A stretch of DNA of 64,000 nucleotides from Polytrichum commune (Eukaryota > Streptophyta > Polytrichopsida > Polytrichales > Polytrichaceae), in the NCBI GenBank assembly GCA_950295325.1, contig OX485805.1:58874283-58938282 (forward strand). Direction: 5' to 3'. Below, piece after piece: positions 17,501 through 64,000 of this stretch. The notes beneath the pieces are model-generated. The model was not told the DNA's origin. It ran no database searches and saw only the letters and a program-made list of their open reading frames with translations. The position numbers and the translations under genes are program-made. Within the stretch, counting starts at the first letter, position 1; every line of letters begins with the position of its first letter.

Positions 17501-17683
17501 CGCATGATGCCGGCCCTGATGCCATGGCCACCGCCAATTCCAGTGCCACTCCGGCCACTGAAGACCCGCTACAGCGGCCGCAACCCCCCCATCCTGCCGA
17601 CCTCTCTGCTGCTGCTGTTGCAAACGCACCTCAATCTGCCGCTGCAACGACGTCAGCCACTGAGGTATCTGCATTGCCGTCAC
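14525..17683 (-). CDS. Class 3 lipase fused to a P-loop GTPase-like domain
   Basis: One uninterrupted frame of 1052 codons. The N-terminal half is an alpha/beta-hydrolase of the lipase class 3 family: nucleophile elbow GHSLGG (about 276-281), an Asp in EDVIPRIL (about 346) and HSMRSYRGRF (about 550), which together fit the Ser-Asp-His triad. Two low-complexity inserts (about 160-235 and 370-495, with poly-Ala and acidic runs) lengthen it. The C-terminal half has a Walker A loop GFEGAGKT (about 770-777), DAPG (816-819) as a G3-like motif and TNKF (890-893) as a G4-like motif, so it looks like a GTPase. The last 25 residues (GIGAGFGLVVAVLVGAANSL) are a candidate tail anchor or membrane-binding helix. 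Likely role: a membrane-associated acyl hydrolase acting on glycerolipids, gated by nucleotide. The substrate is unknown. Absence of introns contrasts with the neighbouring helicase-like gene. Confidence 0.85.
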   Translation of the reverse strand: MTAMQIPQWLTSLQRQIEVRLQQQQQRGRQDGGVAAAVAGLQWPEWHWNWRWPWHQGRHHAKKPSSSSQQREGEEYKRKLAALCSAVKAEDVSDLEDVLGAMVLSECVYKRPDSELLRAVNKFKADFGGHLVSVNLVQASLDHVPHRYLLAEAGNTLFVSFIGTKQLQDVVADANFLQKSMFGGDVSEGEDSEGEEQVKEVAIPHRPPSSSSSGSNAAPRKAVLGLNNGDLPARPVKLTKGKPAAHRGFLARANGVPATELYRLAQRKDRRLVLCGHSLGGAVAVLATLAILRAFASTTSISRAANKVQVKCITFSQPPVGNAALRDYVHKKGWQHHFRTYCIPEDVIPRILSPAYFEHYRSQTTTTAPPAAAVAAVLPEQTPNEEVRNDDKTEGSQIVLATPNPFWRLPKLVPLAAVPMTSLQWLKGKRKEDDNGELANSNEGEVGATATAAAAAAPASSQLLEIHEDSEGVELESKSPSGSDGKLPGGVAAEWLDRVPSLPSLPSYVPFGQLYLLDKLSVQPLSTSEYTQLSSVQSVLLEMRERFHSHSMRSYRGRFQQIYNLCMSKDVPVSNKENFPLLPHLQQWLSTLGGQLAEVGRILDPITIKLATAMVPLGWTGLVGEKKGCKPLKVDILGHGLHLCTLVRARVNGRWCATSIEVSPPTPFLDIGRASKLQRMRIRIGDPLQQSSMSEQERSALSTSEATMNELQQHDALHSSDLCDMGEVGRGSSSSIEVEGLGEVTIFCSTDFMTASREVAMRLRRVRLLGFEGAGKTSLYFALLGGEGMMLGHNFGGMLPDMDWREGVVGGVSYVDAPGVNLQDLPGDAERLQKELSVKVGPNSKKLDLVILVHNLAHKIPQMRASSRPALALLTDEVAAAGVPFILAITNKFAVSADRRHLATVGVMETYQVPPNLTVVINSCPHVVHGVVQDEAQEEKEGAGWQPQRLISGSMNLVQRPFRRREVVQSPQGVENLQTLVHNVLIEQEEAAMKEFSRQALAYETAKEMASLEANKHDYNRLAGATTAAGIGAGFGLVVAVLVGAANSLRKP

Positions 17684-17757
17684 TGTCCCTCGGAAGCCTC
17701 ATCGCCCTCCTTTCACAAACAAGCTCTACCTCCTCTCTTGCATTGCAACCTGGATGA

Positions 17758-19820: not shown

Positions 19821-20465
19821 AATCTTGAGTGGTGGAAGCATTTCATTTCAGTTATAATTTCAACACTTTCAGTGTTGGTGACCACGTCTGCACACAAAAC
19901 AACTTGCACACAATTTGGAGTGCACTGGCCTCCTCCCCGTTGGTTGTGGCACCGGAAGATGTTTACGATATGAATAAGACTAGTTTATTTTATCGTGCTC
20001 AACCAAACTAGACACTAGCGCAAGGAAGAGTTCATGGGTGCAAAATCTAGAAGGGCCGTCTCACTCTTGCTCTTGTTGTAAACATGACATGCATTGACAA
20101 ATTCATACATGTGATTATTTGCAATTCTCTAATCTTATTGTATATTTCAAATCTCAAAAGTGGAAGATATTTTTGATTATGGAGAATTATACTACTCATT
20201 CCTCTCAACATGTTGGTAGGGGTGAAGCGTTTGGTTTTTCAATCGTGCAGCTCAATAGTATTACTATTGCTTTCTTACCACCTAATGTTACAAGTGTGGT
20301 ACAACCCTTGGATCAAGAAATAATTGCTTCATTTAGTTCAATATAAGAGGATGCTTTTGAAATGGGTTCTCCCTCAATTTGATTCTTCTACTACTCACCA
20401 TAACTTGAGGAAAATAGTGCCTAATGTAAGGCACGTTGTGGTGCTCTCAAGTGTGGAGAGAGATT

Positions 20466-20758: not shown

Positions 20759-21123
20759 GGGAGCTAGACAACTCCTAGTTGAAGATGGATGGATTGGAGT
20801 TAGACAACTCCAGATTGACAACATGTGCACTGGAGTTAGACAGCTCCGCATATAGTGCATTGGAATTAGACCATTCCATATTGAGAACATGTGCACATGA
20901 GTTAGACAACTCTCGATGAGGTGCATTGGAGTTGGACCGCTCCAGAATTGGAAAGATGAATGTTATTCATTGGAGTTAGACAACTCTTAATGAATAGATG
21001 GATCTAGTTGGAATTAGACAATTCCAACTAGAAGAATGAATGGATGAATTTAGTTGGAATTAGACAATTCCAACTAGAAAGAAGGATGGATGAATCCAAT
21101 TGGAATTAGACAATTCCAATTGG
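20759..21123 (+). repeat. Array of about ten short hairpins with a constant AGAC loop
   Basis: Inverted repeats around AGAC occur at about 20759, 20796, 20832, 20862, 20899, 20928 (loop GGAC), 20972, 21004, 21051 and 21096. Stems differ but stay paired: GGAGTT/AACTCC, GGAATT/CATTCC, CTAGTTGGAATT/AATTCCAACTAG (12 bp) and CCAATTGGAATT/AATTCCAATTGG (12 bp). The loop AGAC is nearly invariant. The whole array lies inside the solo LTR. Reverse-complement reading gives a GTCT loop. Confidence 0.85.
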
Positions 21124-21949
21124 AAGAATGAGATTGAGATAAGAGATGGAAGAAGGTTCTAGAAGAACCAAAGATAGAAGATTCATAGTAGAACTAAAAG
21201 ATAGAGCTATGAATATGATACTTTTACTATATGTAAAGATAGAAAGTAAAAGTAGTGCTTCGGCATAAGAAGAAGCTCGGGGGAGGAGAGAGGACCTTTG
21301 GTCTCTCTCCTATGGTCGGGTGGTTGAGCTTTAACCAAAACATACTTGGTCTATGATTGTTTTGGGTTGATACGTGTTAGTGTGGAAGTTGGTGATAAAC
21401 CGGTGAGAGGTTCGTTACAGAGATGGATCCCCAAACCATGCGAAACGGCTGGAGAATGTCCAAGATTTTACTTGCAAACTAGAATGCCAATTTTTTCATG
21501 AATGATGAATGTGAGAAATCAAGAAGGAAAGAAGCAAAAAATGAATTGGCAAATCTCACTTCCTCTTTGAATCTTGGAAGTGAAGAAATGCTTATTAAAG
21601 AATATGTGCAATGTGTAGGAGAGGAAATTGTTGATGCAGAGTATAATATGGCTAAGTTGGTGGATTTGGCATGGGTAGAAAATTCATTTGAGTTTAAATT
21701 GGAATGAAGAGCCAATGGAGGGGAATGATGGATGACCAACCACCAACAATACTCAAGCTTCTTCAAGCATATGAGTATGCCCAATTACTATCAAATTTTG
21801 TAGTGAAGCATCCTTCGGAGGTTTCAGTTATTGATGTGACAAATATGCAATCTTTTATGAATAAGTCAAACAAGATGTCAGTTTCCAACATCAACAAGCA
21901 TCAAGCATAGACAATAGCTTCTTACTTTCATAGTGTAAATATGATGAAG

Positions 21950-46079: not shown

Positions 46080-47240
46080 ATTTGGTGCTTTAAACTTTCT
46101 AACTGATGACAGTGTTGTACTGCAATGGAAAATTCACGGAGTCCACCAAATTGATCAGAGTCTAATCCATCAGAATGTGCGATGATACAAAACCATGGGC
46201 TACATACAATGAAGTTTTTTGTAAGAAGACAAACAATCAGTACATGAACTGCTGTGCCTTCCTATGAAAAAGAAGTATAACTCGGCTCTTCAAGGACTAG
46301 TGTGAGTAATTGGTGTTTGTTCATGGGATTGCATTTCTAACCAAGGTATTGGTTTCCAATTAGAGAGTGAACCCCATCATCTTATATCTTGTGTCTCATA
46401 CAAAAATCCCTGCAGGTGAATAATTTGTCTTTAAGAATCCTCACTATAGTCAGGTTAGCACTAGCATGGCTCCAACAACCACAAGTGATATTAACCAGCA
46501 AATCTAAGGTTTAAGGGTATCCACCTATGTACATAGATGGGCAATAAATGCTAACTTACATGGGGCCATTCACGGTTGGGGTACTACTTTTGGCCGTCTA
46601 ACGGAAAACGGATTTTTTTGGATAACTTCACATGCTTGGTATGCTTAGATTTGTATTGTGAAGCATATTTTGGATCATACCTACATTTCATACTCCATAT
46701 CGAGTACACTGACAAAAACACTATATTCGTTAAATTGAGACTTTTATCTAGTCTCAAATTAATATATGGATCAAACAACATTCCGTGTTCCGAAACTATA
46801 TTGAGAACGATCTCAAATATATTATATGTTCTAATATCCCAAATCTATTATGTGTGGACATAAGCACATGTGGTAGAGCACTCAACACCAACTTCATCTA
46901 CAAAAACACTTTGGGTAGAGCACTCCAAACTAGTTTCACCCAAGAAACATATAAAATGATTTTTATTATTAGCATGGTCAATAAAATATAGACATTGCAA
47001 CATACAAAGTGCATGCAATAAATGCATTTTTCTTCAATGGAAAATTTAGTCCCAAACTTAATAAAAAAAATGAACTTCACAACTGTATTGAAATATAGTA
47101 AATGGATATTCATCCAACCCCAAACAATATAGCATTCGCAAGTTCTACCCAAACTTTGCCCCAAGTTTGAGGAGCACACATATGAGTAATATATATTCGT
47201 CGAATTACAGTTTACACTATAATCATGCTAACACAATCCT
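46080..47240. other. AT-rich spacer
   Basis: No gene is recognised. It contains one copy of a roughly 60-bp dispersed repeat (46717-46780) that recurs at 53181-53240. Open frames are AT-driven. Confidence 0.5.
46717..46780 (+). repeat. Dispersed 60-bp repeat (copies at 46.7, 53.2 and, in part, 63.76 kb)
   Basis: The phrase aacactatattcgttaaatt, then ctttt..tctagtctcaa and attaatatatggatcaaa, is shared between 46717-46780 and 53181-53244. The first about 28 bases recur inverted at 63752-63780. No terminal features are visible. It may be a piece of an unrecognised transposon. Confidence 0.65.
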
Positions 47241-47249
47241 ACCAACTTC

Positions 47250-50200
47250 TCATTCAACGTGGGTTGCTTCTTCTGCGATCCGAGTAAGGTTGTCTTTTGC
47301 AAAAGTTATGTACTTTTGAGGGATGGACACTGATCCACTATGATTTTTCCGTGGTTTCCATGCTATGAATATGGAATCTGTATCTACCCAAGATGGACCG
47401 TGCTCAGAATCCACCTTCCACCGAAAGTTAGGGTTTGTATCCCAGCCTGTATAATGCCGAACAACATCTTCATTCCGTGCTGTCGGTCAGTAGTACTCTA
47501 CTTGTATTTGTCGAAAATGAGGGCTGGAAGTTACAAAATTTGGTTTGGACAAAGCTCTTGCCACCCACACTGGCTTTGCATATGTCTCATCTCCAGGACG
47601 CAAAATGAGCATATAACCTTCATGACAATCCACTGCAATGCGGAAAGATGGTGGCGGACGACTACTAGCAGGCCCCACGTAATCACTACTAGAAAATCAT
47701 GACCAAATCAACAAAAAATCAACAGAACTTTGTCGATCCGGGCACTGCAATGACCGATTTCACTGATTTTTGAATTTTTGTAAAAATCAACAGTTTACTG
47801 CCTACAATTTTGTTGATTAGAATAGTACAATGACCAAATCAACAAAATTTTAGTAAATGTGAAATCTTTTTTGAATCTTTTTGGGAATATTCTAGGATAT
47901 ATTGGAATATTGTAAAATCTTTTTAATTTTTTGCAATTTATGGACTTGTAAGTGTATGGGTATGGAAATAATTACGAATTCAAAGGTGTTTAAATATTAT
48001 AAATATTATATTAGTTGATAGTTAATATTATATATGTATTAATAATATTATATATGTAATATTAATATGTAATATTATAATAATATTAATATATTAATAT
48101 ATTTATATTAATATTAATATATTAATATGTATAATATGTATATAATATATGTAACATGTATGTATATAATATATAATATATAAATATGTATATATTTACT
48201 GTAATTATATACTGTATATATTTACTGTAATTATATACTGTATATATTTACTGTAATTATATACTGTATATATTTACTGTAATTATATACTGTAATTATA
48301 TACTGTATATATTTACTGTAAATATATACATCAAGTAGGTAGTAAAGAGAAATTAGTGGCCTTATTCTAGAAAGTTTTAAAACACTCCGTTTATATCATG
48401 TGTGATGTGATGACCTAGTGGTTAAGGCACATGTGTGGGTATCACTAGGTACAAGGTTCGATTCCCGTGGCTGACACCTTCGGCCTTGGCCTTGCCACCT
48501 ATATGAGTGGTAGGTAGTCTATACTTGTAGGTGAGGTATATGTTGAGGTTTACTTGGGAGGGGTTAGGAATTGCAGATCTGACATTTATTCATTTTTTAT
48601 TTTTTAATGTTATATATATATATATATAATAAGTTTTTTTAAAAAAATATTTTTGTGACCATATCAACAAAAAAAATCAACAAAATTGTGTTACATCATG
48701 TCCAGGTCAACGCGTCCTAAGTAACAACCGCGACCAACGCCTTTCTGTTGATCCGGACGCAAAATTTTCTACTAGTGAATGGTCGTCCATATCAAACTCC
48801 TCTCGAATCTCTCCATTTCCCAAAAGACTAGCCTCCGAAGCTTGTACATTGACACGTGTTTGTGGCCAAAACCCATGCCTTAAAGTAAGGGGTGTATCTT
48901 GATGAAGGTTTGCCAAAGCGCCACGAACACGTGTCCAATATTGTATCCAACTTCCGTAACGAAGCCAACACGATCCACCAACATCCGCTACCCTCAAACT
49001 CTCCCAATATTGTATGAAGCCTGATATGCCTTTACAAATGTCCTCCAAATTCTTCATGGGTATTGGTTTGCAAGGCTTAGGCTCTCCGTCAGGCAACATC
49101 GTCCTTCCTTCCCCATCAACACGCCATACAAGGAGACCCTCCGGCGGGCTCCAGTCTTGTGATGTGCACAACAACTTGTATTGCATGGCGGGGACACCAT
49201 CGTCACGCACGTAGAACCGAAATTGTTGTGCCTTCGTATGCCCGATCAATCGGTGAGCTCCGCTTCGAATATACGGTTCTATAAATGCCTTGAAGTCTGG
49301 AACCTCCTCGATCATATGGGGGATGACGGGAATGTTCTCCAAATCCATGTATGACTTCATCAACAATGGAATTGTTGGAAAATCCTCCTCGCGCAACTTC
49401 ATGCTCCACCGCCCAAAGGACGCATCAATATCATCGTGCGTATGGCCTACCAATAGAAAGGACACAAAAACCTCCTTGAAAATGCCTTTCGCCACCAACA
49501 ACGACCAATATGCAAAAACATATCTATTTTTATTGTCCTTCGCACAATTGTCCAATTGAACACGCAGAGTTGGGGGCAACTTCTTGGCAATCACATCTTC
49601 ACTTGGTGGCTCCGGCAATGACTGCACGCATACATCTCTTCCATCCAAGACCGCTTCATATAGAGGTGTTGATCCCGAGTTTTCAAATAACAATCTTGAT
49701 GAATAGGACGGCGGTTTCTCCAAATCACGTAAAAGCTTTGCAAATGACCCTATCGTGTGGTTTGAATCCGCCGGATACAAATCAAGAGCATAATGAGCAT
49801 ATTTGATATCACCATGCCCATGTGCAATCATTCCTGCAAAGGCAACCCAATGGTTTAATATTCAACTATAACACCAAAAAATTCACATGGTGTACATCTA
49901 TGGCCCCAAGTACAAACCTAAACGCACAAATTTGTGTTTAGGTAATGCAATGCAATTGTTATCAAAATCACCTGTAACCGAAACAGGAAGCTTAAAAAGG
50001 CCGTCCGTGGCTTTGATTCGATTTGCAAAACATGGTGAGGCTGTTTTGGCATGGTCCATCTTGTCATGGATGATTGTAAGGACTTCCAAAGGCCTGGAGA
50101 TGGACAAAGCTCTATTTGTGTAGTAATCATTACGGTGTGCCTCTTGCATGTTCACATGCTTGAAATAGTTCATTTGATGTGCGGCATAGGACTCTGTCCC

Positions 50201-51436
50201 CATCGTGTGTGCATCTCGAAGGCGTTTCAACTTCTCGCATTTGGAACAACGGGCAAATTTATCGCCTCGTCTTTTTGTGATGTATTCGCTAAAGTGAGAT
50301 TTTTTTATAGCACTCAGTTTCGACAACGAAATTGGGTCCAACCCGGCCTTCTCGCCAACTGCGTTTACGTCCAACAATATGTCTTTCCATTTCGTGACTG
50401 TAGGAAGAACCTTCTCCACAACCTTTTCACCGGTTGCGAGTGTGCGTGTTTTGTGCGGCATTGCATCGGCAAGGGGGACAATGATGGTTGCCAAAGTGGT
50501 TGTTGCTTGTCTCGTTGCTTCTCTTGGTTTCTTTAAGCCCATGTTTCCATGGTGACGGGCACGGCGGCCTTCATTGGCATACACGGCTTGTCTATAAAAT
50601 TTCGCTTTCGACACACCATGAATGGTGTACCATGCCGTACAACACACGTCTATGCTCTCAAGGGTGATGACCTTGCGACCCGCTCCGTTCACATGTATCG
50701 CCCTATGGACATCAAGTTTTTTGGTGGATCTTAGACGGAAATCTCCAAGCCACATTTCTTCACGGATGGCCTTCAATTTATCTCTTGGGAACAATTGGCA
50801 ACAATGATGTACACAACAATCCTTCGTAGCAACTTCTCTAATAGACTCCTCACAGAGCAACCTTTGACGTTTACACTTATTTGCAGACGGAGTAGGACGT
50901 GTCAATGTTTCGTACTTCCGAAGGCCTTTGCGTGGCCGAATGTTTGCTTGGAGCTCCTGTTGGATTTGGACGTGTCGTCGCTCATGGTCGCGCAAGCTAA
51001 CCCCGTCAATTGTCACATTCCTCAACGGCCACCTTCGCAACGAGAACCTATGAGTTGGATTGACTTCCGAATGTACGAGTGATTCTAATATAACAACTCC
51101 AACGTCCTCGGTGCCAAGGGGGTGTTCATCAATGCAATCTTGTGGATGTGTGTTACGACAAATACCCTCCGCCACAGCAACTCCACTGTCATTAACAAGT
51201 ACCACATCCAAATTCACCCATGAAGCTCGTGAAAGCCCCGCACATTCCACAATGGGGCAAAAAGGGTCAGATGGCGAAGGACTTCCCAAATGACCTTCAT
51301 CTGCACTGTCATCAAAACTATCCTCCCCGACAATGTCTAGCTCATCCCCAGACAGAGATTGGGTGCTGCCGATGTCTTCAGAGAAGGAATCCCCTCTTCC
51401 ACCAACTCCCTCCATTACGCCTACACACATGCACAT
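47250..51436 (-). CDS. DUF7869-type transposase-like gene, 3' part interrupted by a CACTA element
   Basis: Exon 1 (51436-49918) and exon 2 (from 49833) join over an 84-bp intron in phase (RL|GMIAHGHGDIKYAHYAL). Exon 1 has an acidic start, Cys-rich segments (KDCCVHHCCQLF; FARCSKCEKLKRLRDAH) that look like zinc ligands, and HDKMDHAKTA. Exon 2 carries VQLDNCAKDNKNRYVFAYWS and FLLVGHTHDDIDASFGRWS, the hallmark pair of DUF7869, a domain common in mosses and invertebrates and thought to be RNase H/DDE-like (family knowledge; function unproven). The frame now ends inside the CACTA element at 48707. Beyond it, from 47683, the same frame continues (YVGPASSRPPPSFRIAVD) to a TGA at 47487-47489 and then stays open with protein-like sequence to 47250. 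About 850 aa in the original form. The gene is likely disabled or altered at its C-terminus. Confidence 0.7.
48187..48330 (+). repeat. AT-rich tandem repeat, about 26-bp unit
   Basis: The unit tatatatttactgtaattatatactg is repeated four to five times with little change inside the CACTA element. Confidence 0.8.
48405..48612 (+). mobile_element. tRNA-derived SINE nested in the CACTA element
   Basis: The head is tRNA-like: A-box-type tgacctagtggttaaggc (from 48411) and a perfect B box GGTTCGATTCC (48455-48465) at usual spacing. A tRNA-unrelated body (ccttggccttgccacctatatgagtgg...) and a T-rich end (ttcattttttattttttaat) follow. This is the build of plant AU-type SINEs, which end in T runs. Length is about 200 bp. 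Flanking duplications were not resolved. Confidence 0.75.
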
Positions 51437-51615
51437 GAAACCTCAACAAACATGGACACAACGTAAGGGTCCAAAAGAATCAAATATTGGAAAATGCAAA
51501 ACATCACGATGAATGGGGACACTGAGGATCAAGACATTTGCAACACAAATGCAATGTGAGCTCCCAATACTGTGCGCCAGTCCACAAAATGTTCCACAAA
51601 ATATTTTGGGTGGGA

Positions 51616-52401
51616 GTTTGGGTCGGCCGACCTAAACCCTGTGGCACCAGGGATTGAGGGCCATCCCCACCTTGCCTGTGGGATAGGGTCGGGTTCCGGT
51701 CGACCGACTCAAACCTTGTACAATGATGGGTTGAGGGCCATTTAGAATTCCATCACACTGTGGGGAAAACTTTGGGTCGACCGACCCAATCCTTGTCATG
51801 GTCAACTACAACCGCCGAAACTGGGGAAGGGGTTTGGGTCGACCGACCCAAACTTTCACAGGGTAAACCCACCCACACTCAGAAGGGGTTTGGGTCGGTC
51901 GACCCAAACTTTCACAGGGTAAGTCCACCCACACCGGGAAAGGGTTTGGGTCGGTCGACCCAAACTTTCACAGTGTAAATCCACCCACACTGGGATGAGG
52001 TTTGGGTCGCTCGACCCAAACATTACATATGATGGGATAAGGTTCCTACTCTGTCCGTCCAAACCTTCTGAGTACCTTGGGTAAGGGCCATTAACAATTC
52101 GTTCACGATGTGCGAAAAAGTTTGGGTCGACCGACCCAAACCTTCTAAAAGGTTTTACGATAAACGCCCACAGTGGGGTAGGGGTTTGGGTCGACCGACC
52201 CAAACCTCACAAGGGTCAGAGTAGACCCCCCCCCCAACACTAGTGAAGGGGTTTGGGTCGACCGACCCAAACCTCACAAGGGTCAGAGTAGACTCCCCCC
52301 AACACTAGTGAAGGGGTTTGGGTCGACCGACCCAAACCTCACAAGGGTGAGACTAGAACCCGCCCACACTACTGGAGGGGTTTGGGTCGACCGACCCAAA
52401 C
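51616..52401. repeat. Tandem array of 22-bp palindromes upstream of the DUF7869-type gene
   Basis: Perfect or near-perfect palindromes with arms GTTTGGGTCG and CGACCCAAAC start at 51832, 51888, 51944, 52000, 52120, 52184, 52251, 52316 and 52380, with diverged ones at 51616, about 51690 and 51770. The first four are spaced exactly 56 bp, the last three about 64-65 bp. The linkers (tttcacagggtaa..ccaccca; cctcacaagggtcaga) are tandem copies as well. The 2-bp centre varies: AC, GT, CT, GC. The array starts about 180 bases upstream of the DUF7869-type start codon. Confidence 0.92.
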
Positions 52402-52446
52402 CTCACAAGGGTCAGACTGGAACCCGCCAACACTAGTGTCGACCGA

Positions 52447-52506
52447 CGTATAATACAGCGTATAATGCGGCGTATAATGCGGCGTATAATGCGGCGTATA
52501 ATGCAG
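52447..52506 (+). repeat. 12-bp tandem repeat CGTATAATGCGG
   Basis: Five consecutive 12-bp units (cgtataatacag, three cgtataatgcgg, cgtataatgcag) follow the palindrome array directly. Confidence 0.9.
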
Positions 52507-53723
52507 CGGATATTGAGAGGTGTGTGGAATTTCAGCTCATTGCAAAGTTCACTGCGGACTTGCATGCTGTGGATAGGTCCTCATGAACAGCAGCGTGAAC
52601 GAACCTCGAAGTACAGCTCCGACTAAGAGTTCTCTCTACGAATTCAGGAGTGGGAGAAGAGCAAAAAGAAACCAATTTTTGGGGGGTGCGCCCCTTTATA
52701 CTATCCACCTCCACTTGCCCGACTTCCTCATTGGATGCCTTTCCCGCCTTGTTATTTCAAACCTCCTGACAGAATTCCCCGTTTTCTGTTTATTGTAGAA
52801 AATGCGCATCTTTCAATGCCCCTCTCATACCCCAGCCGTCATATGATTTAGTCTATGATATTTAATCTTTTTTTGGTTTTGTGTGTATATGACATACGAC
52901 ATTGGGAGGAAGGGTGGCGGCCACATTAATTTTTTCAAGTGTCACAACGGTATATTTTAACCAATATGTATACCCAACCACAACTCCATTCAATGCTTTC
53001 AAGTGCAAACCTATTTCGGTGGGGTTGGGGCCATTTGGAGGCTGCAATTATGAGAGAGTTTCCAAGGCTTGAGGCCATTGTCATGATGAATAAAATTATT
53101 TATTTGTCTCCCCTAAACCCTAAACCCTAGAACATTGCTCTATTATCTCGCATGGAAGTGTGGCAATGATAAACGTATGTAACACTATATTCGTTAAATT
53201 CAAACTTTTTCTAGTCTCAAATTAATATATGGATCAAACAAAAACTTCTACAATGTCACCCTAATGCATCATATACATATTAAATGATGATATTGATCTA
53301 CTTTAATTCAAACATTACGGTATGGCATTAACCAATATGTAGACAAAAGAAGTCTAAACATTGTGTAACGCCTTATGGTAAGAGTCACTAAATACAATAG
53401 TTAAAGTGGTTATGAAGATCCTCGCAAGGGGAATTATTAATTTTGAAATCAAATTATGTCATGACAAAGTTCATTTATTGTTCCAAATCTGAATTTGCAA
53501 CAATGCAAGTGACAAGAGCTTTTATATATAATATGTTGTCATCCCTAAACCCTAAACCCTACAATATTGTCCTCTTCTCTCGCATGCAAGTGTGGCAATG
53601 ACGAATGTATGTGGACGTCGATAAGGGGATACTAACTACCAATGTCGCTTTTTAGTTCAATATTTCCATGCTAATTGAATCCATCCTCAAGTTCACTTCA
53701 AGCTTACTAATGTGTGTGAACAA

Positions 53724-54555
53724 AACATCCAAAGTTGAACCATAAACCCTTATAACATCCACAACATGAAATTATACGTATTGACTAAACCATACACCAA
53801 TTAGTATATCATGTTTAGACGTTCCAAATAACATATTCACATGATCAAGATTGTGGTCACTATAACCTTCCTATTAGACTCTTCTTAATATATAAACAAC
53901 ATTTCTTATATCTTTCTCCATTATCTAATATACGTGGAGGGAACAATGAACAACAACACGATTGCTTGCATGGCTTCATTTGATGTTGTGCTTAACCGAT
54001 TTACGTTTATATCACATTCCATATATTAAATACATCACGAACCATAGTTTATTGGCGACTATGTGATTCATCAAAGGGAGCAAAACATCCAAAGTTAGAC
54101 CCCTAAGTCCTAATAACATCCACAACATGAAATGCTATTTGAATAAACACAAGACCAATTAGTATATCACGTTTAAACGTCCCAAATAACAACTTAACAT
54201 ACTCAACATCATCTTTACTATAACCTTCCTATAAGACTCTTCTCACCAGTAAGTCAATGTTGTACGTTAATATTGGATAGATTAATATGTTATAACCATG
54301 ACTCCTAAACCCTAAACCCTAAACCCTAAACCCCAAATCTTGTAGTTGTTCAGTGCTACCTCCATATACAAACAACATCAAGTTTGTCTTGCGCCATTAT
54401 CTAATATACTTGGAGCGAACCTTCAATAACAACATGATTGCTTGAAGGGCTTCATATGATGTTGTGGTTCTCCGATTTGCTTTTATATCACATTCCAAGT
54501 ACATATATCACGATCCATGGTTTGTTGGCGACTATGTGATTCATCAAAGTGAATA
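53724..54555 (+). repeat. Diverged tandem duplication, about 360 and 470 bp
   Basis: Copy 1 (about 53724-54080) and copy 2 (about 54083-54555) share acatccaaagtt, aacatccacaacatgaaat, accaattagtatatca, gtttagacg.tccaaataac, ataaccttcctat.agactctt, attatctaatatac.tggag and ggcgactatgtgattcatcaaag. Copy 2 is longer because it holds the CCCTAAA run at 54304-54332. Confidence 0.75.
54304..54332 (+). repeat. Interstitial telomere-type repeat (CCCTAAA)n
   Basis: About four CCCTAAA units in tandem. Shorter runs occur at 53111, 53543 and 56129. This is the Arabidopsis-type telomere unit and supports a land-plant or green-lineage origin. Confidence 0.85.
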
Positions 54556-55029
54556 TCTAGGGGATACCCTATAAAACTTGAGCATGTTAGCATTTTGAAA
54601 TAAAGATCATGCAATTCCAAACCCTCACAATATGCACTTGGGGAAGGTATTCATTTAGGCTCCACATTCAAATATCCTCAATTTCCGAATTTCATGTTGG
54701 GGGGTGGGGATTGTCTTTTTTATTCATTGCATATTGTGTGAGTTGTTGGCATCAATGGTAAAGTCTATTGTATTTGGCACGTAATTGTATTTTTTTTATA
54801 ACGTGCTCAAACAAACGAGAAACCAATGACTTCAACTTGTTTGGAAAATTTAGTTAATGGTGTCATGTAAGTAGGAATTAAGTATTAGTGTTAGCATAAA
54901 GTTGCGTTGTAAAGATGTATTAGTTGTATAAATGGTTTAGTTTTTTAGAATACCTCATTTGATGTATACCTTAGGCTACTCCAAAGTCTATTCAAAATTG
55001 TACTACCCGCTAAGGGTTTACTCCTTAGA

Positions 55030-55934
55030 GGGATGGGAGTTAGGGTTCCCCGTAACCCTATTCCCGTTGCTGCCCTAATCACGTTGGCACCCTATTCGCG
55101 CGGTTGGGGGCCAATTCCCGAGGGTAACAAAACCCCAGCCGCCAAGCATTCTCCTCCTTTCTCTCTCTCTCTCCCGCCAACCTTTCGCTCCGCGCCTCTT
55201 GTGGAAACGCCGCCTCTCCTGAAGCGCCGTGGCGATTCAGGGTGGCGCTTTTCTTTACATTCCTTCTCCACCCTTTTTTCTTCTCCTTCCCTCCCTTCTC
55301 TTGCTGTAGCGGGAGATTGCACTAGTGTTGCAATATATAGCATTGTTGAAGTGTTTTCCAGATTGTTGAAGGGTTTTCCAACATTCTGTGTGAGCTTTAG
55401 GCAGTGCTTGCGAGAGTTCGAAGTGCGGATGAGTGCATGTGAGTGCTTGTGAGTGCATGTGAGTGCTTGTGAGTGCATGTGAGTGCTTGTGAGTACATGT
55501 GAGTGCTTGTGAGTGCATGTGAGTGCTTGTGAGTGCATGTGAGGGCTTGTGAGTGCATGTGAGTGCTTATGAGTGCATGTGAGTGCTTGTGAGTGGTTGT
55601 CAGATTAGGAAGTTCTATAAGAGATACAAAAGTGATACAAAAGTGCTTTCAGAGATTTAGTTATTGTTTTGAGAGATTCAGTTGTTGTTTTAACAGACTC
55701 AGTTGTTGTTTGAGAGTTACAATTGTTGTTTGAGTGATTCTGAAGAGACTCAGGAGTTGTGTGAGAGATTGTGGGTTTATTGAGAGATTCAAGAAAGGTT
55801 TGAAATCTTTGGTAGTTGTTTGCGAGTTTTAGCGTGTCTGCGAATAGGAATTCACTGATTCTGTCTTAGTCGAAGAAGAGCACTTGTTCAAAAGCAACCA
55901 TCTGCAACGACTACAACAGAAACCCTCAGCAAAG
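55030..55934 (+). other. Probable 5' leader exon of the ParB-like gene
   Basis: GC content rises at about 55.03 kb (with ctctctctctctccc and ccctattcccg text typical of plant promoters and leaders). The stretch ends at a good donor (AAAG|GTATTG, 55935) whose matching acceptor TTTGCAG lies just before the ATG at 56445. The 20-bp minisatellite and a run of ttgttgttt-type repeats lie within it. Frames inside look untranslated. Confidence 0.5.
55431..55597 (+). repeat. 20-bp minisatellite, about eight units
   Basis: The unit gagtgcatgtgagtgcttgt is repeated about eight times with few changes. Its reverse strand yields a periodic His/Thr/Ser-rich open frame that is an artefact of the repeat. Confidence 0.92.
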
Positions 55935-56054
55935 GTATTGTTTTTCAAGGGGTTCCAATATGTGTTTCTTAATTGACAGTGTTGTAGCATACACAATGCA
56001 TAAGCATTGTATATGCTACATGCCAAGTTTTAAAAACTATATTAAAATAGAACA

Positions 56055-56418
56055 GTTTGGGGAGACGACCCAAACACAGCCTATAGTTTGGGTCGATCGA
56101 CCCAAACAGCACGATGTGCTTTGGGTCCCTAAACCCTAAACACAGCCTATAGTTTGGGTCGATCGACCCAAAGCACATCCTGCTGTTTGGGTCGGTCGAC
56201 CCAAACGCAACCTCTACAGTATAAACTTTTCAAGAAATCCTTGATGACAATATAAAACGCAAATCCACCCAAGATAACGAAATACCATATAAACATATAA
56301 ATGAAGTTCTAAAATAACAAGACACAATCCAAAAATAAATGCGTTGATGCATTATATTTCCCTTCCATCACGTGACATCTAATCTATTGTGAAGAAGTTT
56401 GGGTCGAACGACCGAAAC
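56055..56418. repeat. Palindrome cluster in the first intron of the ParB-like gene
   Basis: Copies start at 56055 (diverged), 56086 (centre AT), 56152 (centre AT), 56185 (centre GT) and 56397 (diverged). A short CCCTAAACCCTAAAC run lies between the second and third. All lie within 55935-56444, the inferred leader intron. Confidence 0.85.
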
Positions 56419-56444
56419 TAACATCCTTGCTTCTTTCTTTGCAG

Positions 56445-57775
56445 ATGGCCCCAAAGAAAAGACCAGGAGAAAGGTGGTTCATGCTTGCGCCAGACGTGTT
56501 ATGGCAGGAGCACGAAACACCTCAGGATGACTCATATGTCCCTAAGGACGGGCTTGTCCTCGCCTGGTCAATTCAAGTAGTAAAAACCTCCATTTACAAA
56601 CTGATATTCGTTGTCAAAGTAGGGACCGTGGAAAAACATACCTGGGCGATTCTTACGGGATGGGAGGTGGCGTCGGTCCAGTCTTTTGGAGACTACGCAG
56701 ACGTCATCCTTGAGAACAACGCTGTGCAGAATGCTCATATGTTTCTGTACCAGTTCGTCGAACCCTTTGACGCTACATATGCAAGGGAGTCATGTGTCGA
56801 ACCTGATGTAATCAAACCCGAGACAATTTTCATCGATGCCAGTACATCGAACACAAAGGTCTCGAGCCGGTTTACGAAACTAAAGCATGCAATCAGCGTG
56901 CTCAACAAAGCCCTGCAGAGCAAAACGAAGTCTCAGCAACCCGTCATGCGGAAGGTACCCACTGAGGAAGGTGCAGGGTCGTCAAGGCCTCAATCGGTGA
57001 GGATGCCGCAACCAGTCCCGGCTAGCTCAAGACGAACCACTCCATCGGAGACACCGGCGGTTAGCGAGACTCCTACGCCTTCTGGCAGCCGCCAAACAAC
57101 TCCCTCCAAGAGGGCCAGAGAGTCATCTGTGATGACTGACGAGCCAGTCTCTCCCGAATTGCGCATGCCGAAGCCAGGGCAGGAAGTGGATGCAGGGGAG
57201 ATCCAAAAAATCGTGAACAATTTCACGACCAAGTGCTCCCATTGCTTTTTCATGGGCAGGGATTTCAAATTCGACGTGAACATCAGTCAGTGTCATCTCG
57301 CGCCACCAGAAAAATGTGTGCGGGCAAAAGAAGACGCCTACGTCGATTGGATAATCGCGCAGATCGTTAGCGAACAATTCAAAGACGACAGGCAAACCAT
57401 TGTAGTGATGCCCCAGGGACTGAAGAAAATGCCTACCCCTGAAATGTGGGCGACAATTTAGAAAGGCAATTTTTGGCTCATAGACGGCCAACACAGGCGT
57501 TGAGGCTTCCAAGAAAATCCAACTAATGACTGAGTGGGACGATCCCAACCATCAGAAGGAGAAGTTGAAGGTGTGGAAGGCACTCGTGGTGTGGTCTGAC
57601 GATGAGACCCGACTGAGCGACATCTCCCGTTACTTTAACATGGGGAATAAGAAAAGGGCCTACCAAGCTTCCTGGATAAGGAATATCATGGCCTCGCGGG
57701 AGGTGTGGGAGTTCTATGGTAGGCCTCCCAAGGAGAGGGAGAATGCGAAGGACAAGAATCCCAAGTGGGAGTTGA
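56445..57775 (+). CDS. ParB/sulfiredoxin-like domain exon of a large multi-domain gene
   Basis: The acceptor TTTGCAG precedes ATG 56445 (MAPKKRPGERWFML). The first about 110 residues form an unrecognised folded-looking segment (LAWSIQVVKTSIYKLIFVVK, HTWAILTGWEV). A Ser/Thr/Pro-rich linker follows (about 57000-57180). Then comes a region with CHLAPPEKCVRAKEDAY, VDWIIAQIVSEQF, QTIVVMPQGLKKMP and FWLIDGQH, the pattern of a ParB/Srx nuclease-like fold, whose family signature is 'pi.v.p......lidGxHR..A'. Downstream TRLSDISRYFNMGNKKR may be a helix-turn-helix. In bacteria and phages such domains bind DNA and CTP or cut DNA. Here nuclear DNA binding is an inference. Reading in this exon appears broken at about two places. 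The exact donor near 57775 was not resolved. Confidence 0.5.
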
Positions 57776-57780
57776 GTATT

Positions 57781-57986
57781 GTTTGGGTCGATCGACCCAA
57801 ACTCCTTTTGCAGTTTTATTTGTGTACTTTGGGTCGCTCGACCCAAAGTCTTGTTGCAGTCATGTTTTTTTAGTTTGGGTCGCTCGACCCAAAGTCTTGT
57901 TGCAGTCATGTTTTTTTAGTTTGGGTCGATCGACCCAAACTCTTGTTGCAGTCATGTTTTTTTAGTTTGGGTCGATCGACCCAAAC
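57781..57986. repeat. Palindrome cluster with 46-bp period in the second intron
   Basis: Copies start at 57781 (centre AT), 57827 (CT), 57873 (CT), 57919 (AT) and 57965 (AT), each exactly 46 bp after the last. In the later units the linker ctcttgttgcagtcatg + ttttttta is repeated too. It occupies the intron between the ParB-like and methyltransferase-like exons. Confidence 0.92.
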
Positions 57987-58075
57987 TCTTGGTGCAGACA
58001 CTGGTCATGATATGTTTTGGAAATCACATGTTCATATCTAACATGCATTCAAATGATTGTTTTGATCACATGCAG

Positions 58076-59407
58076 GACTTCAAATACCAAATGATAAATA
58101 AATTCTCCTCCATTGATAATGCTAGTCACAAACAGAAGAAATACAACGAGCTTAGAGGGGAGATTTATTTAATAACAGCATCCGACTCCGTTTGGATGAA
58201 GTGGAAGAATGTATTTGAGAAGCATGAGACGGGTGAGCTCATCGACCCGGACACAAGAATTTTCTTCAACCAAACCACGCGCTTCAAACAAATGAAGCCT
58301 CTCGTAAGAGAGTTCTTTAGAACTCTTCAAGGCCTTTCCGAGACGGAGATGAAGAAGGCGGCGACGCACATCCTGCATTTCACGTCCACGGCGAAAAGGT
58401 GCTGGGTGCACCCGAAGATTGTCTTCTTAAAGCCCAAATTCTTCGTCCCTTCATGCTACACCATGAAGGAATGGACTGAGAATAGGAAAAATAAGACAAC
58501 TATAGTGCAGGAGCTGCATAAATTGGTACCGGAGAGGAATATTGTCGTGGACGGCGAGGTTCATGAGGCTAACTGGAGAGCATTCAAAGCTGAATATAAG
58601 TTCACCAGTGCCTCCATGGCGGCTCTAATAAGGGAAGCGGGGGATGACTTCTTGCGGGCCAAGATGGTGAAGGGTGGGAAGAACCGGGCGCTTCCCGATC
58701 ACACAGCGCGTGCGTTCTCGAACTTCATCAAGGAGAAGAAGATTGTCCAGTTTGAAGGGGACGCTTACTTCAACCTTGTCACCTTCGAGCCTTTGAAAAT
58801 TCAGGGCTGGCCAGGTCAAGACGCCAGAATGGCGATAAGGACGAAAGCAGGGGGGCGTTTTCCATTCGGAATGATAGATTTCAGGAACATTCCTGGAAGC
58901 TCATTTGAGGGTACGATGAGCACACTGTTTTACGACCCCTTCCTATCTAAGTTCGTTGATTATGCGAGTCCTAAGTTCAGGGAGGTTGATGTCTGGCTAT
59001 GGATAGTCGAGGATAGGAAGGCGGAGCAGGTGTACGACCTTGTCCGGAAATTGCAGCCGGAGTATGCAGTCTCCAAGTCTCACTACATCGCCGCACCGGC
59101 GGAGGGGGCCTACACGTCGTTGAAGGACAAGAAGACCAAGGTCGTCAACGTCCTGTGTTTGTACTTCGTGTACAAAGCGGAGTTGTTGAAGGTGCCGAAC
59201 CACCCTATATCCCGGATGGACAAGCTCTTCCAAGTTCCAGATGGGTTAGGTTCCAGCAAATGCCTATACGACGAGGCCAAATACGCAAACTATCCTGTAG
59301 ATGAGCTGCGGATGGAATTCTACATGCGGATGCTAAGGACCCTGACTAGGAGAGGGGACTGTATCTTCAACGTGTTCGGGGGCTCGAAACCCCTCTATGC
59401 TGCCATG
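58076..59407 (+). CDS. DNA methyltransferase-like exon of the same gene
   Basis: This is an open exon of 444 codons between acceptor ACATGCAG and donor ATG|GTAAGT. Its end, RRGDCIFNVFGGSKPLYAAM, together with the start of the next exon (MLGLNIYSYIEDSDLQFY), matches the AdoMet-binding motif I/II of N6/N4-type DNA methyltransferases (family pattern GD-x-V-x-D-x-F-x-G-S-G ... AA ... lGr ... iE). An upstream FYDPFLSKF could stand where DPPY normally is, and VDVWLWIVEDRKAEQVYDLV follows. ParB-methyltransferase fusions are known from phages and bacteria (established knowledge), which supports the pairing. The motif residues deviate (SGT is GSK, DPPY is DPFL), so activity is doubtful. Confidence 0.5.
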
Positions 59408-59435
59408 GTAAGTTACATTCTTTAGCTCTTGCGCA

Positions 59436-59493
59436 GTTTGGGTCGGTCGACCCAAACTAGTCTCTCTCTTGGTTTGGGTCGGTCGACCCAAAC
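59436..59493. repeat. Two palindromes in the third intron
   Basis: Copies start at 59436 and 59472, both with centre GT, in the 154-base intron 59408-59561. They fill over a quarter of it. Confidence 0.92.
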
Positions 59494-59561
59494 TAGATAT
59501 TGTTTTTGGTCTTGTTTTTTGTCTTGCAAATTATAATTTCTATATAACTTGGATTGTGTAG

Positions 59562-61046
59562 ATGTTGGGGTTGAACATCTACTCGTACATAGAGGATAGC
59601 GATCTGCAATTTTATAGGACGCAGAAATCGCTGGCAAAGAAGATGGATATCCTCGATTGGATCCCGGGAAGCTACGTGGACGAGGTTGTTGAGGGGGGTG
59701 AGAACCCTCTTGATAGGGCGAGGCGGATCAACCCGGAAGAAATTGCGATGAGGGCAACAACCCAATTACCCGAACCTCTAGTCGGGTTGCATCCGGGCAA
59801 TCCGTCCCGTACAGGAGGTGGAGAGCTGGAAGAGGAGGAGGAGGAAGAAGAACACGGAGAGGAGGAAAAGGAGGGGGATGTGGAGGAAGGGGCAACGGGA
59901 TTCACGCAAGAATCCGAAGCCCCTCAGAGGAAGAAGGCTATGCGTGTGGCAACCCCGCAGAGTAAGATGATGCCCGTCCTTACGGTGGACGATGCGAGGG
60001 ACATGTACTCCAGGGACGCGACTGCCACGTTCCGGGAGAGGAGGAAGTTAAAGGGAAAGAAGCTCTATGGCGATTACGCATTGGAGGAGACCATTGCCAT
60101 TAGCAGCGAGGACGACGACGACATTGAGCTCGCCAAACGGCTCAGATCGGATCCCCCCTCCCCGACAGCGTTCGCAGGCATGGTTAGGGTGAAACCCGAA
60201 GTCCTCACTGTGGAGGAAGCCAACGAGAAGATGCGTAGAGACGAGGAGCAGCGCGTCCGCCTGCAGAGGGCTGCCGCGGAAGAACCCTCCGTGCGGAACG
60301 AGGTCGCAGAGCTGAGGGCTCTCCTCTTGGAACAAGAAAGACTAAGGGCGATGGCCCAACCTCCATCCAGCGCCGACTTGATATCGCAAGTCATACAAGG
60401 GATGCGGGCGCAAGGATTGGTGGTGGCTCCATCCAGCTCGTTTCCGCACTTGCCCCCCGGTTTCCCAACGCAGAGCATCCCTCAGCACCCAGTGTCGCAA
60501 GGGTCATTCAGCTTCCAGCACATGATGCGGCCGCCCCATGTTCCGTACGCGCCGGTCCAACAAGTGGACGATCCCAACATCTGGCGCGTATCTGGAGCCT
60601 CCTCCCTGTTGGGCCCTCCACCACTACGACCCCCCATAGTGATGGCGCCCCCTCACCAGCCGGACGATCCCAGGATGTTTGGGTCGACCGACCCAAACCC
60701 ACCCTCGACTGTAGTGCCCCAAGGCGCCTCCCCCGATGCAGGACAGTTTGGATCGCCCGACCCAAACCCCGGAGCAGCTCAGTCCTCCCTTGACGAACTT
60801 GTGTCTCAAAGAGACACAACCATGTTAGATGTTGAAGGCCTCCAAGGGCCTGGTGATACCTCTAATCCTAACCAAATCGATGAACCCATGCATGATGCAT
60901 ATGCGGAGATTGGTTTAGGACAAGGGCCTGATGCTCAACCTTTGCAGGACAAGGTCCCTGACGTAGGCGGAGAAGGCGGTGGCGAGAGAGGTGGGGCACC
61001 GGGGACGGTGGAGGCATCCACATCGTCGAGACATGACCAGGGCGAG
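59562..61046 (+). CDS. Acidic/proline-rich linker exon of the same gene, with two palindromes in frame
   Basis: An open exon of 495 codons, phase 0 at both ends (TGTAG|ATG ... GGCGAG|GTAACA). After the tail of the methyltransferase-like motif it has an acidic run (EEEEEEEEHGEEEKEGDVEE), a basic patch (RERRKLKGKKLYG), a coiled-coil-like helix (VRNEVAELRALLLEQERLRA) and a long Pro/Gln/Ser-rich tail. Two copies of the palindrome lie in the coding sequence (60677-60698 and 60746-60767) and encode FGSTDPNP and FGSPDPNP. The exon probably forms a flexible spacer between the enzyme-like domains. Confidence 0.55.
60677..60767. repeat. Two palindromes inside coding exon
   Basis: 60677-60698 is a perfect copy (centre AC). 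60746-60767 is a slightly diverged copy (GTTTGGATCG arm, centre CC). Both keep the reading frame. Confidence 0.9.
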
Positions 61047-61067
61047 GTAACACACTGAGCCCTCCCA

Positions 61068-61089
61068 GTTTGGGTCGACCGACCCAATC
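61068..61089. repeat. Palindrome at the start of the fourth intron
   Basis: One copy (centre AC, last arm CGACCCAATC) begins 21 bases after the donor at 61047. The rest of the 466-base intron has none. Confidence 0.85.
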
Positions 61090-61512
61090 TTCCTTGGTCA
61101 TTGTCTTGTTGGCGTGGTCGTGTCCCCCCTATCTATGAGGAACTACACCCCCCGACGCACCCAACAACGTGCTCACCCCCGCGATCCCCTTCGTCTCACC
61201 TCACTCGACTACACTCGACCTTGGCGGCGCGCAACCAATTTTGTAGATGTAGAATTAGGATAGTGTGAATGCCCTCGTTCACCGCGCCCCCCCCCCCCCC
61301 ATAAAATTGTACATAGAGATTTGTAACAATAAAATTATTATTTTTGGCGCCCATATGTTAGCATCCGTGTCCCAATGTATGTTGTTCCCCTTGTATGTTT
61401 TTGTTGCCACCAATGGTCCAATTCTTCTTGTGTTTGCACAAAATTTCCGTTCTGCTTGAATTAAACATAGCATAACATAGTCCTCGCCGCCTTCTCTCGC
61501 TCGTCGCCGCAG

Positions 61513-62301
61513 GGATCGGAGCATAGCGTCGCGGCTCCCCACCGGTCCTCCCCGAGGAGCGTGGAGGACAGCGTGGTGGTCCCTCCGATTTTGCCCTCTC
61601 CGTCTCCGCCGCCCAAGACACGGTTCCTGGTGCTAGATCTCAACGGGGTCCTCGTCCAGTGCGTGCACTGTCCCAGGGTCCCCACGGTGCCTTTCTGCAA
61701 GCCCGAGGACGGGAACTACGATGGACCCCCCGCGTACATCAAAAGCAAGCTAGTGTACCTCCGCCCGTCCCTTCGGCGCTTCCTACAGGTCGCCCTATCC
61801 AAATGGTGGGTGATCATTTGGAGCTCCATGAAGTCCGAGAATACCCAGGCCGTCGTGGAGTTCATCTTCAAGGGACTCCAACCCCCGTGCTTGGTCCTAG
61901 GACAGGATTCTTGTAAAACATTGTACACCCCCGAGGGCAGGGTTGTGAAGAAGCCCAACAACCCCGCCGTAAACCAATTTCTTAAGGTCTTGAAGCCAGT
62001 CGTATGGGACCAGCGTCTGACCATGGTCGGCTGTCCCTACGACGTTCGCCCCACCCGTGACAACACGTTGATGGTGGACGACAGCGCTTCCAAGAACATT
62101 TTGAACCCGACCTCCAACTTCATAGTTTGCCCGACGTGGATGGTCGAGAAGGTCCGAGACCGCTTTTTGTTAGACCTACTTAAGTACATTCAAACGCTCG
62201 TGGGGAGCGGACTACCCGTGCCCCGGTTCCTTAGTTGTAATCCGATAGGCGAAAGATACATGGATCCGAAGGACTATATGTACAGAGAGTTGTACGCTCA
62301 C
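61513..62301 (+). CDS. FCP1/NIF-like HAD phosphatase domain exon of the same gene
   Basis: This is an exon of 263 codons, phase 0 at both ends (GCCGCAG|GGATCG ... GCTCAC|GTGAAA). It carries FLVLDLNGVLV (motif I; plants have a large HAD group with DLNG in place of DLDG/E), YLRPSLRRFLQVAL, VIIWSSMKSEN (motif II Ser) and TLMVDDSASKN (motif III/IV VDDS). These are the ordered motifs of the FCP1-homology/NIF domain, which in other proteins dephosphorylates the RNA polymerase II tail or other phosphoproteins in the nucleus. Motif I keeps its first Asp as nucleophile but the second Asp is Asn, as in many plant relatives. Without an upstream ATG in frame it must be spliced to the preceding exon. Confidence 0.7.
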
Positions 62302-62441
62302 GTGAAATATAATAAACTCATTTGAGATACTACATGGTGTGCCATTGTGTGTGATATATTATGCCTCAATTGTATATCGATTTTCACATGCTCCCCCCCC
62401 CCCCTCCCCTTGGGTTTTGTTTGTTTTAATTTTGCCATCAG

Positions 62442-63289: not shown

Positions 63290-63660
63290 ATGGATGTGTG
63301 GTGTTAGCATGCTATGCATTTTACATGCCATACTTTGTATGTTTTTTTTGCAATAATATAAGTGTCACATGATTTCCCCTTCCATATGGTCTAAGGTTTG
63401 GATTGCCCTACCTAAACCATCACAAATATGAGTTTGGAATATTTTGTATGTTATATTATATTGCTTGACATATCTCCCCTTCAATATGATCTATGGTTTG
63501 GATTGCCCTGCCTAAACCATATTCATACAAGCTCTCATATTTTGTGTGTGATAATATGAATGTTTTAAGATTTCCCATTCAACGTGGCCTAAGGTTTGGA
63601 TTGCTCATCCTAAACAATCACGAATATGAGATATTAATGGGGTTCTTGGTCTAAACACCC
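63290..63660. repeat. About 100-bp tandem repeat with decayed palindromes
   Basis: Three to four degenerate units (about 63290, 63391, 63491 and 63589) share gatttccc..tcaa.atgg.ct and aaggtttggattgcccta + cctaaacc. The second phrase, GGTTTGG ... CCTAAACC, looks like a decayed version of the GTTTGGGTCG palindrome. The block lies just 3' of the ParB-like gene. Confidence 0.7.
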
Positions 63661-64000
63661 GCTTCAAAGTGTTCGCATCTTACAACTTTCTCCAATATGT
63701 GTTCCATTTATCCTTGTCCTTATTTATGTGATTGTCTCAAAATGCCCAAAAAATCTCAATTTAACGAATATAGTGTTATTATGATTTTTTCATCATGATA
63801 AAGTTTGTCCATTATGTTGGATTTTATTTTTCACCAATAAAGAACACAAACCTTAAAATTTCAAGAAGGAAATAAATCCCTTCTTAATGTTATATGCAAC
63901 TTGAAACAAAATGCATGGCATCATCATTTATATGATATGCGTCAACTATCCATGTGGGAGTCCAAATTCGACGGAAATACGGAAATACGGATTCAATTTC
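63661..64000. other. AT-rich flank
   Basis: No gene is recognised. It contains an inverted partial copy (63752-63780) of the repeat seen at 46717 and 53181. Confidence 0.5.

Follow-up and report, generated by a model that had tools for sequence, protein, structure and literature searches.

Clustered 22-bp palindromes inside a giant transposon-like element of Polytrichum commune are likely recognition sites of a dimeric regulator

We analysed a stretch of 64,000 nucleotides of the moss Polytrichum commune (assembly GCA_950295325.1, contig OX485805.1, positions 58,874,283 to 58,938,282 of the forward strand; the whole stretch is called the window below), in which 26 copies of a 22-bp palindrome are clustered. 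The palindromes are likely protein-binding sites, and on balance we favour the view that they are recognised by a dimeric, probably element-encoded regulator acting in cis on a giant transposon. An earlier note on this DNA, made from the letters alone, had treated the region as an ordinary gene family; it looks instead like one giant, decaying DNA transposon (about 46.7-63.8 kb) between terminal inverted repeats. The sites exceed chance by far and, at 3 mismatches or fewer, are confined between these repeats. We think of cis-acting dimer sites because the constraint is symmetric, the centre is short, the linkers are unrelated and the placement is largely non-coding. An element-encoded and probably anti-silencing regulator is suggested because the architecture is like that of algal ParB-methyltransferase elements and the distribution of the sites is like that of the VANC/VANDAL system.

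The window was scanned for the pattern GTTTGGGTCG-NN-CGACCCAAAC, allowing at most 3 mismatches. All 26 matches fall between positions 51616 and 61089, which upholds both the coordinates and the copy number (more than 20) given earlier, and 17 of them have perfect arms. The palindrome had also been said to be absent elsewhere, and indeed the remainder of the window (47 kb) contains no copy at this threshold, nor did any of 100 dinucleotide shuffles. A relaxed pattern gives 30 matches in the window as opposed to a mean of 0.01 in shuffles; the additional ones are degenerate palindromes at 46909, 63396, 63496 and 63594, and two more (56055 and 62872) were recognised by eye from half-sites. All six degenerate copies fall within the interval bounded by the terminal repeats. 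Half-sites that stand alone (at most 2 mismatches, outside palindromes) are at most loosely concentrated there: 26 of the 50 lie inside this interval and 24 outside. The exact pattern was found neither in viral nor in genome contigs of collections that hold viruses and prokaryotes only, and the 20-letter core with an AC centre was not found in the text of open-licence PMC papers.

The centres are AC (10 copies), GT (5), AT (5), CT (3), GC (1), AA (1) and CC (1). They are thus variable, as the earlier note had it, but not fully free as it had also implied, because the second base is a pyrimidine in 25 of the 26 copies and AC is the commonest centre. The base on the 5' side of the palindrome is a purine and the base on the 3' side a pyrimidine in 23 of 26 copies each, and therefore the dyad extends to 24 bp.

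The terminal repeats are positions 46714-46745 and 63749-63780, which are 94% complementary in inverted orientation. The termini CACTATATTCGTTAAATT occur at 46.7 and 63.78 kb, with a third, internal one at 53.18 kb. The sequence TAACACTATATTCGTTAAATT is perfect at 53180 (+) and at 63758-63778 (-) and has one mismatch at 46716, with 0 occurrences expected in shuffles. There are accordingly two left ends, sharing 95% identity over 62 bp, and one right end, which leaves two alternatives: a 17-kb element with a duplicated internal left end, or a 10.6-kb element beside a relative. We prefer the first since palindromes flank 53180 on both sides. We note that complex local repeats of about 80-190 bp occupy 53104-54552, that some of these hold CCCTAAACCCTAAACCC telomere-like runs, and that one unit (53104-53180) runs exactly up to the internal terminal repeat; CCCTAAA repeats, which are of the plant type, were seen in the window, and both they and a nested element with CACTACTAGAAAA termini would point to a plant.

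The termini start with CACTA as in the CACTA/EnSpm superfamily, though a conserved AA precedes it, and classical CACTA subterminal sites are the nearest rival to an anti-silencing role. The palindromes would in that case be TnpA-type sites of a CACTA-like transposon, at which an accessory protein pairs the ends for excision and represses transcription, as TNPA does in En/Spm. Degenerate palindromes do lie near both ends, and the subterminal repeats of CACTA elements can form palindromes that fast-diverging TNPA-like proteins are thought to bind (PMC2613891). We still consider this explanation rather unlikely. The canonical palindromes lie in the interior, starting 4.9 kb in from the left end and stopping 2.7 kb short of the right one, and many are in predicted introns. 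A 3-bp target duplication of the CACTA/EnSpm type was not found, the flanks being AAA (46.7 kb) or TAA (53.18 kb) on the left and TTA on the right. Moreover, Pfam, applied to a subset of the open reading frames (ORFs) of the interval, returned only DUF7869 and NIF above the cut-off, i.e. no CACTA transposase family and no Tnp2-type domain.

The element carries two divergent genes, whose sites and domains are given in Table 1. The exons and introns of the rightward gene were inferred from splice signals and reading frames. In this gene 12 palindromes fall in 1425 bp of predicted intron, whereas 4152 bp of exon hold 2 (p = 4e-6 in a binomial test, which is overstated as array copies are not independent), and none of the four introns counted is without a copy. 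The remaining 12 begin 180-944 bp upstream of the likely start codon of the leftward, DUF7869 gene. The ratio of observed to expected CpG is 1.43 in the palindromes of this upstream array and 0.30 in the rest of it; the corresponding values are 1.73 and 0.49 in intron 1, 1.39 and 0.0 in intron 2, and 1.40 and 0.40 in intron 3. The contrast shows retention at most, not its cause, and is partly true by definition because the motif itself holds two CpGs. Given where they lie, before one gene and within introns of the other, the sites could also serve as operators that are read by a transcription factor or an insulator-like protein of the host, and could have been acquired and multiplied because they secure expression of the transposon's genes; a dyad with a 2-bp centre presumably suits many dimeric factors. 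This is improbable, since the rest of the window, 47 kb, contains no copy at 3 mismatches or fewer, and we assume that 22-bp host sites so invariant would be unusual.

The spacing of the copies points to local duplication. The array periods are 56 bp (three times), 64, 67, 65 and 64 bp, and 46 bp (four times), so that of the strict periods reported earlier those of 56 and 46 bp stand, and that of 64-65 bp becomes 64-67 bp. Tandem Repeats Finder reports four palindrome-holding arrays, with periods of 56, 64-65, 46 and, loosely, 33 bp, the last being at 56054-56213 in predicted intron 1 with 72% matches. Divergence was compared between homologous array units only, using gap-free linker columns and leaving out non-homologous edge units. 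Pooled over the arrays, 2 of 60 arm columns are variable as opposed to 23 of 95 linker columns (Fisher p = 5e-4, an approximate value as columns share ancestry). The arms have no variable column among 20 either in the 56-bp array (linkers 9/34) or in the 64-67-bp array (linkers 7/37). In other words, the earlier statement that arms are kept while linkers drift is confirmed for the pooled data, with the 46-bp array as an exception.

One and the same palindrome is repeated in arrays that have unrelated linkers and differ in period, which speaks for the reading as binding sites. The copies outside arrays have nearly intact arms, which bears on the possibility that the palindromes have no function and arose like a satellite, as a by-product of tandem duplication and recent homogenisation. 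The four arrays and the 46-bp array, whose arms are no better kept than some linkers, speak for such an origin, but the arms outlast the linkers in the other two arrays and non-array copies keep theirs, and we regard this as quite improbable. As the arms are nearly invariant, covariation expected of a hairpin RNA can hardly be assessed; the end pair is changed on both sides in the copy at 57827 and on one side in that at 57873.

The earlier note had offered two kinds of reading. That of a dimeric protein-binding site fits the symmetric constraint, the arms kept amid drifting or unrelated linkers and the non-coding bias. Recombination sites or mobile, self-spreading palindromes gained little and are very improbable, for although the same palindrome is found in unrelated surroundings, the four isolated copies (56397, 60677, 60746 and 61068) have no flanking duplication by eye, no copy lies beyond the terminal repeats within the window, tandem duplication of 46-67-bp units explains much of the spread, and neither of the two exon copies disrupts the reading frame.

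Table 1. Features of the transposon-like element, in window coordinates; exons and introns are predicted.
Feature	Position	Strand	Basis or remark
Left terminal inverted repeat, AACACTATATTCGTTAAATTGAGA...	46717..46745	+	94% complementarity of 46714-46745 to 63749-63780
Degenerate palindrome inside left terminus	46909..46930		Relaxed pattern
Nested non-autonomous CACTA element, 1.1 kb	47684..48777		13-bp termini CACTACTAGAAAA; 3-bp duplication AAT
DUF7869 part of leftward gene, candidate transposase	48779..49861	-	PF25273, E = 4e-43 (ORF 48710-49861)
Upstream ORF of leftward gene	49901..51442	-	Predicted splice to next ORF, donor ~49972
Palindrome cluster, 12 copies, including 56-bp and 64-67-bp arrays	51616..52401		Between likely DUF7869 start codon (~51436) and 12-bp minisatellite
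Internal second copy of left end, 62 bp	53180..53241	+	95% like 46717-46778
Intron 1	~55935-56444		Just upstream of ATG 56445
Palindrome cluster in intron 1, 4 copies	56086..56418		Plus degenerate copy 56055
Exon 2, ParB-like motif DGQH..EASKK	56445..57780	+	
Intron 2	to ~58075		Donor uncertain
Palindrome cluster in intron 2, 5 copies	57781..57986		46-bp period
Exon 3	58076..59407	+	End carries part of methyltransferase-like stretch (presumed from motif only)
Intron 3	59408-59561		
Palindrome cluster in intron 3, 2 copies	59436..59493		
Exon 4	59562..61046	+	
Palindrome cluster in exon 4, 2 copies	60677..60767		
Intron 4	61047-61512		
Palindrome cluster in intron 4, 1 copy	61068..61089		
Exon 5, FCP1/NIF-type phosphatase domain	61513..62325	+	PF03031, E = 2e-13; in phase with exon 4
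Three degenerate palindromes of GTTTGGATTGCCCTACCTAAAC type inside right terminus, period ~98 bp	63396..63615		Relaxed pattern and tandem-repeat scan
Right terminal inverted repeat	63749..63778	-	Repeat comparison

The leftward gene consists of two ORFs (51442-49901 and 49861-48710) that are joined by a plausible predicted intron. The upstream ORF has no Pfam family, and the DUF7869 protein is a candidate transposase. We presume from its motif pattern that it is of the RNase H type, for which a PDB sequence search with the DUF7869 part (0 matches) gave no support. With the same ORF PHROGs returned a single family of unknown function at E 0.13, and DUF7869 was not found in the text of open-licence PMC papers. 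No relatives were confirmed for three ORFs of the window in viral contigs or for the DUF7869 ORF in prokaryotic genome contigs: these searches gave 0, 7, 2 and 10 pattern-matching stretches, none of which passed tblastn, and given the scope of the collections this silence weighs little. A single-sequence structure prediction of the DUF7869 part (mean pLDDT 33) was unusable. Just beyond the 12-palindrome array lies a TATA-like 12-bp minisatellite, CGTATAATGCGG (52447-52512, 5.5 copies), which is a possible promoter of the leftward gene. The nested CACTA element interrupts the 3' part of this gene. Within it, a stretch at about 48400-48480 resembles by eye a tRNA-derived short interspersed element, with what we take to be A and B boxes; ARAGORN found no tRNA there.

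The rightward gene is on the strand opposite to the DUF7869 gene, i.e. opposite to the transposase if DUF7869 is one. In this copy of the element it is broken, because a stop codon interrupts the reading frame of exon 2 at 57459-57461 and the frame shifts near 57.5 kb. Exon 2 holds FWLIDGQH..EASKK, and its sole PHROGs match is the ParB-like partition protein phrog_1033 (E = 0.042, 0.076 and 0.038 for three cuts of one stretch). A phage tblastn search with the ParB-like part gave no match; its nine PDB matches (E 1.4-1.7) were all haemagglutinin-neuraminidase and were taken as chance. By eye, the exon 3-4 junction resembles what we take to be the C-terminal motif of an N6/N4 methyltransferase, and we treat it as a lead only. 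No methyltransferase was found for this part in PHROGs, PDB sequences or phage genomes; two PDB matches (E 0.89 and 1.4) are at chance level, and seven phage records from tblastn (E 0.9-9) were likewise taken as chance. The FCP1/NIF domain reads DLNGVLV where we would expect DxDxT, and it seems to be joined, in phase, to an accessory protein of the transposon. Upstream of the gene there is a 10-bp minisatellite (TGAGTGCTTG/TGAGTGCATG; 55430-55600, 17 copies).

If the palindromes are sites of an element-encoded regulator, each would be bound by a symmetric protein dimer, each subunit taking up one half-site of 10 bp. The sites would have multiplied as non-coding DNA was duplicated locally in tandem, both ahead of the candidate transposase gene and within introns of the divergent gene, and selection would have preserved the arms while the linkers drifted. 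The most likely reader would be a regulator encoded by the element itself, with the product of the rightward gene as the best candidate. By binding, it would regulate the element in cis or release it from silencing, in the manner of VANC on VANDAL in Arabidopsis; judging by this analogy, anti-silencing is probably the outcome. A more specific version, which we put forward as tentative and somewhat doubtful, is a parS-like system in which a ParB-like, methyltransferase-like, FCP1-phosphatase accessory protein binds dozens of palindromes, multiplied in the promoter and introns of its element, marks the element epigenetically and protects it from silencing. Were this so, the system would be unrelated in origin to VANC. 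Sequence-specific anti-silencing would then have evolved a second time, independently, and the protein and its site would form a compact pair with which epigenetic marks could be directed.

Several observations weigh against the regulator and its proposed element. No target-site duplication was found either for 46.7-63.8 kb or for the shorter 10.6-kb element; the latter, with its left end at 53.18 kb, would not include the 12-copy array. Two of the 26 palindromes (60677-60698 and 60746-60767) are in exon 4, where they read in frame as FGSTDPN and FGSPDPN. CpG outside the palindromes is not low in intron 4 (0.98; palindromes 1.40) or exon 4 (0.79; 1.44). In the 46-bp array 2 of 20 arm columns vary as do 7 of 24 linker columns, and arms differ where linkers are identical. 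The ParB-like PHROGs match is weak and covers only 33-37 residues; neither this part (in Pfam or NCBIfam) nor the methyltransferase-like part (in Pfam) has a family at E up to 10, and in PDB sequences both gave chance-level matches only, at E 0.89 or worse. The structure model of a part of exon 3 (58343-59407; mean pLDDT 32) is as unusable as that of 48779-49861.

Elsewhere in the window there is a second, unrelated palindrome array at 20760-21126, with about 10 copies of TTGGARTTAGACAAYTCCAA (nine by a script pattern, the tenth at 20899) and a mostly constant AGAC centre. Its arms change on both sides together, from GGAGTT/AACTCC to GGAATT/AATTCC, and it lies 3' of a relic of a pogo-type DDE_1 transposase (about 20150-20345, Pfam E = 6e-8). 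A probable host gene, a class 3 lipase (PF01764, E = 8e-17), is at 14528-17698; of the seven ORFs tested from other parts of the window, this one alone had a Pfam match. Neither an Rfam scan nor a tRNA scan of the whole window gave a hit.

Bacterial ParB-parS and KorB systems have palindromic dimer sites scattered in the promoters and genes of mobile elements that carry a ParB-like gene. The moss sites differ in that they are 22 bp long, form arrays and lie in eukaryotic introns, and in that the ParB homology is weak. The likeness to the CACTA elements En/Spm, Tam1 and Tgmt* with their TNPA/TNP1 proteins consists of termini starting with CACTA, a repeated short motif and an expected element-encoded reader (PMC2613891), whereas the moss sites are internal and largely intronic and there is no target duplication. 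The targets of VANC are short motifs, tandem-repeated in the intron, intergenic and terminal non-coding DNA of VANDAL transposons, and binding causes loss of DNA methylation (PMC5735166, PMC10398659). Here, too, arrays of a short motif are in non-coding parts of one transposon, the introns being predicted and seen in one copy of the element. The VANC21 motif YAGTATTAY differs in being 9 bp long and not palindromic, and no VANC-like or Mutator-type Pfam family was found in the ORFs tested of the element.

In architecture the moss element resembles giant algal transposons such as the 21.5-kb Sola1-1_Ec32. In these, the products of accessory genes with ParB-like and DNA-methyltransferase parts have been proposed to attach to the very element that encodes them and to modify it, and nested insertions and broken genes are common (PMC12477816). 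The moss element shares with them its giant size, an accessory gene opposite to a candidate transposase, a putative ParB-like motif, possibly a methyltransferase part, a nested insertion and a broken gene. It differs in that its ParB homology is weak and its methyltransferase part an unproven lead, that its candidate transposase belongs to DUF7869 and is not shown to be Sola-1, and that an FCP1/NIF domain is added. The available text of the algal study names no target sites, and its main text contains no word beginning with 'palindrom' (PMC12477816); in the literature on such accessory proteins, as far as surveyed, no cis sites are proposed. The 26 copies of a 22-bp palindrome beside a candidate ParB-like gene are a concrete target for proteins of this kind.

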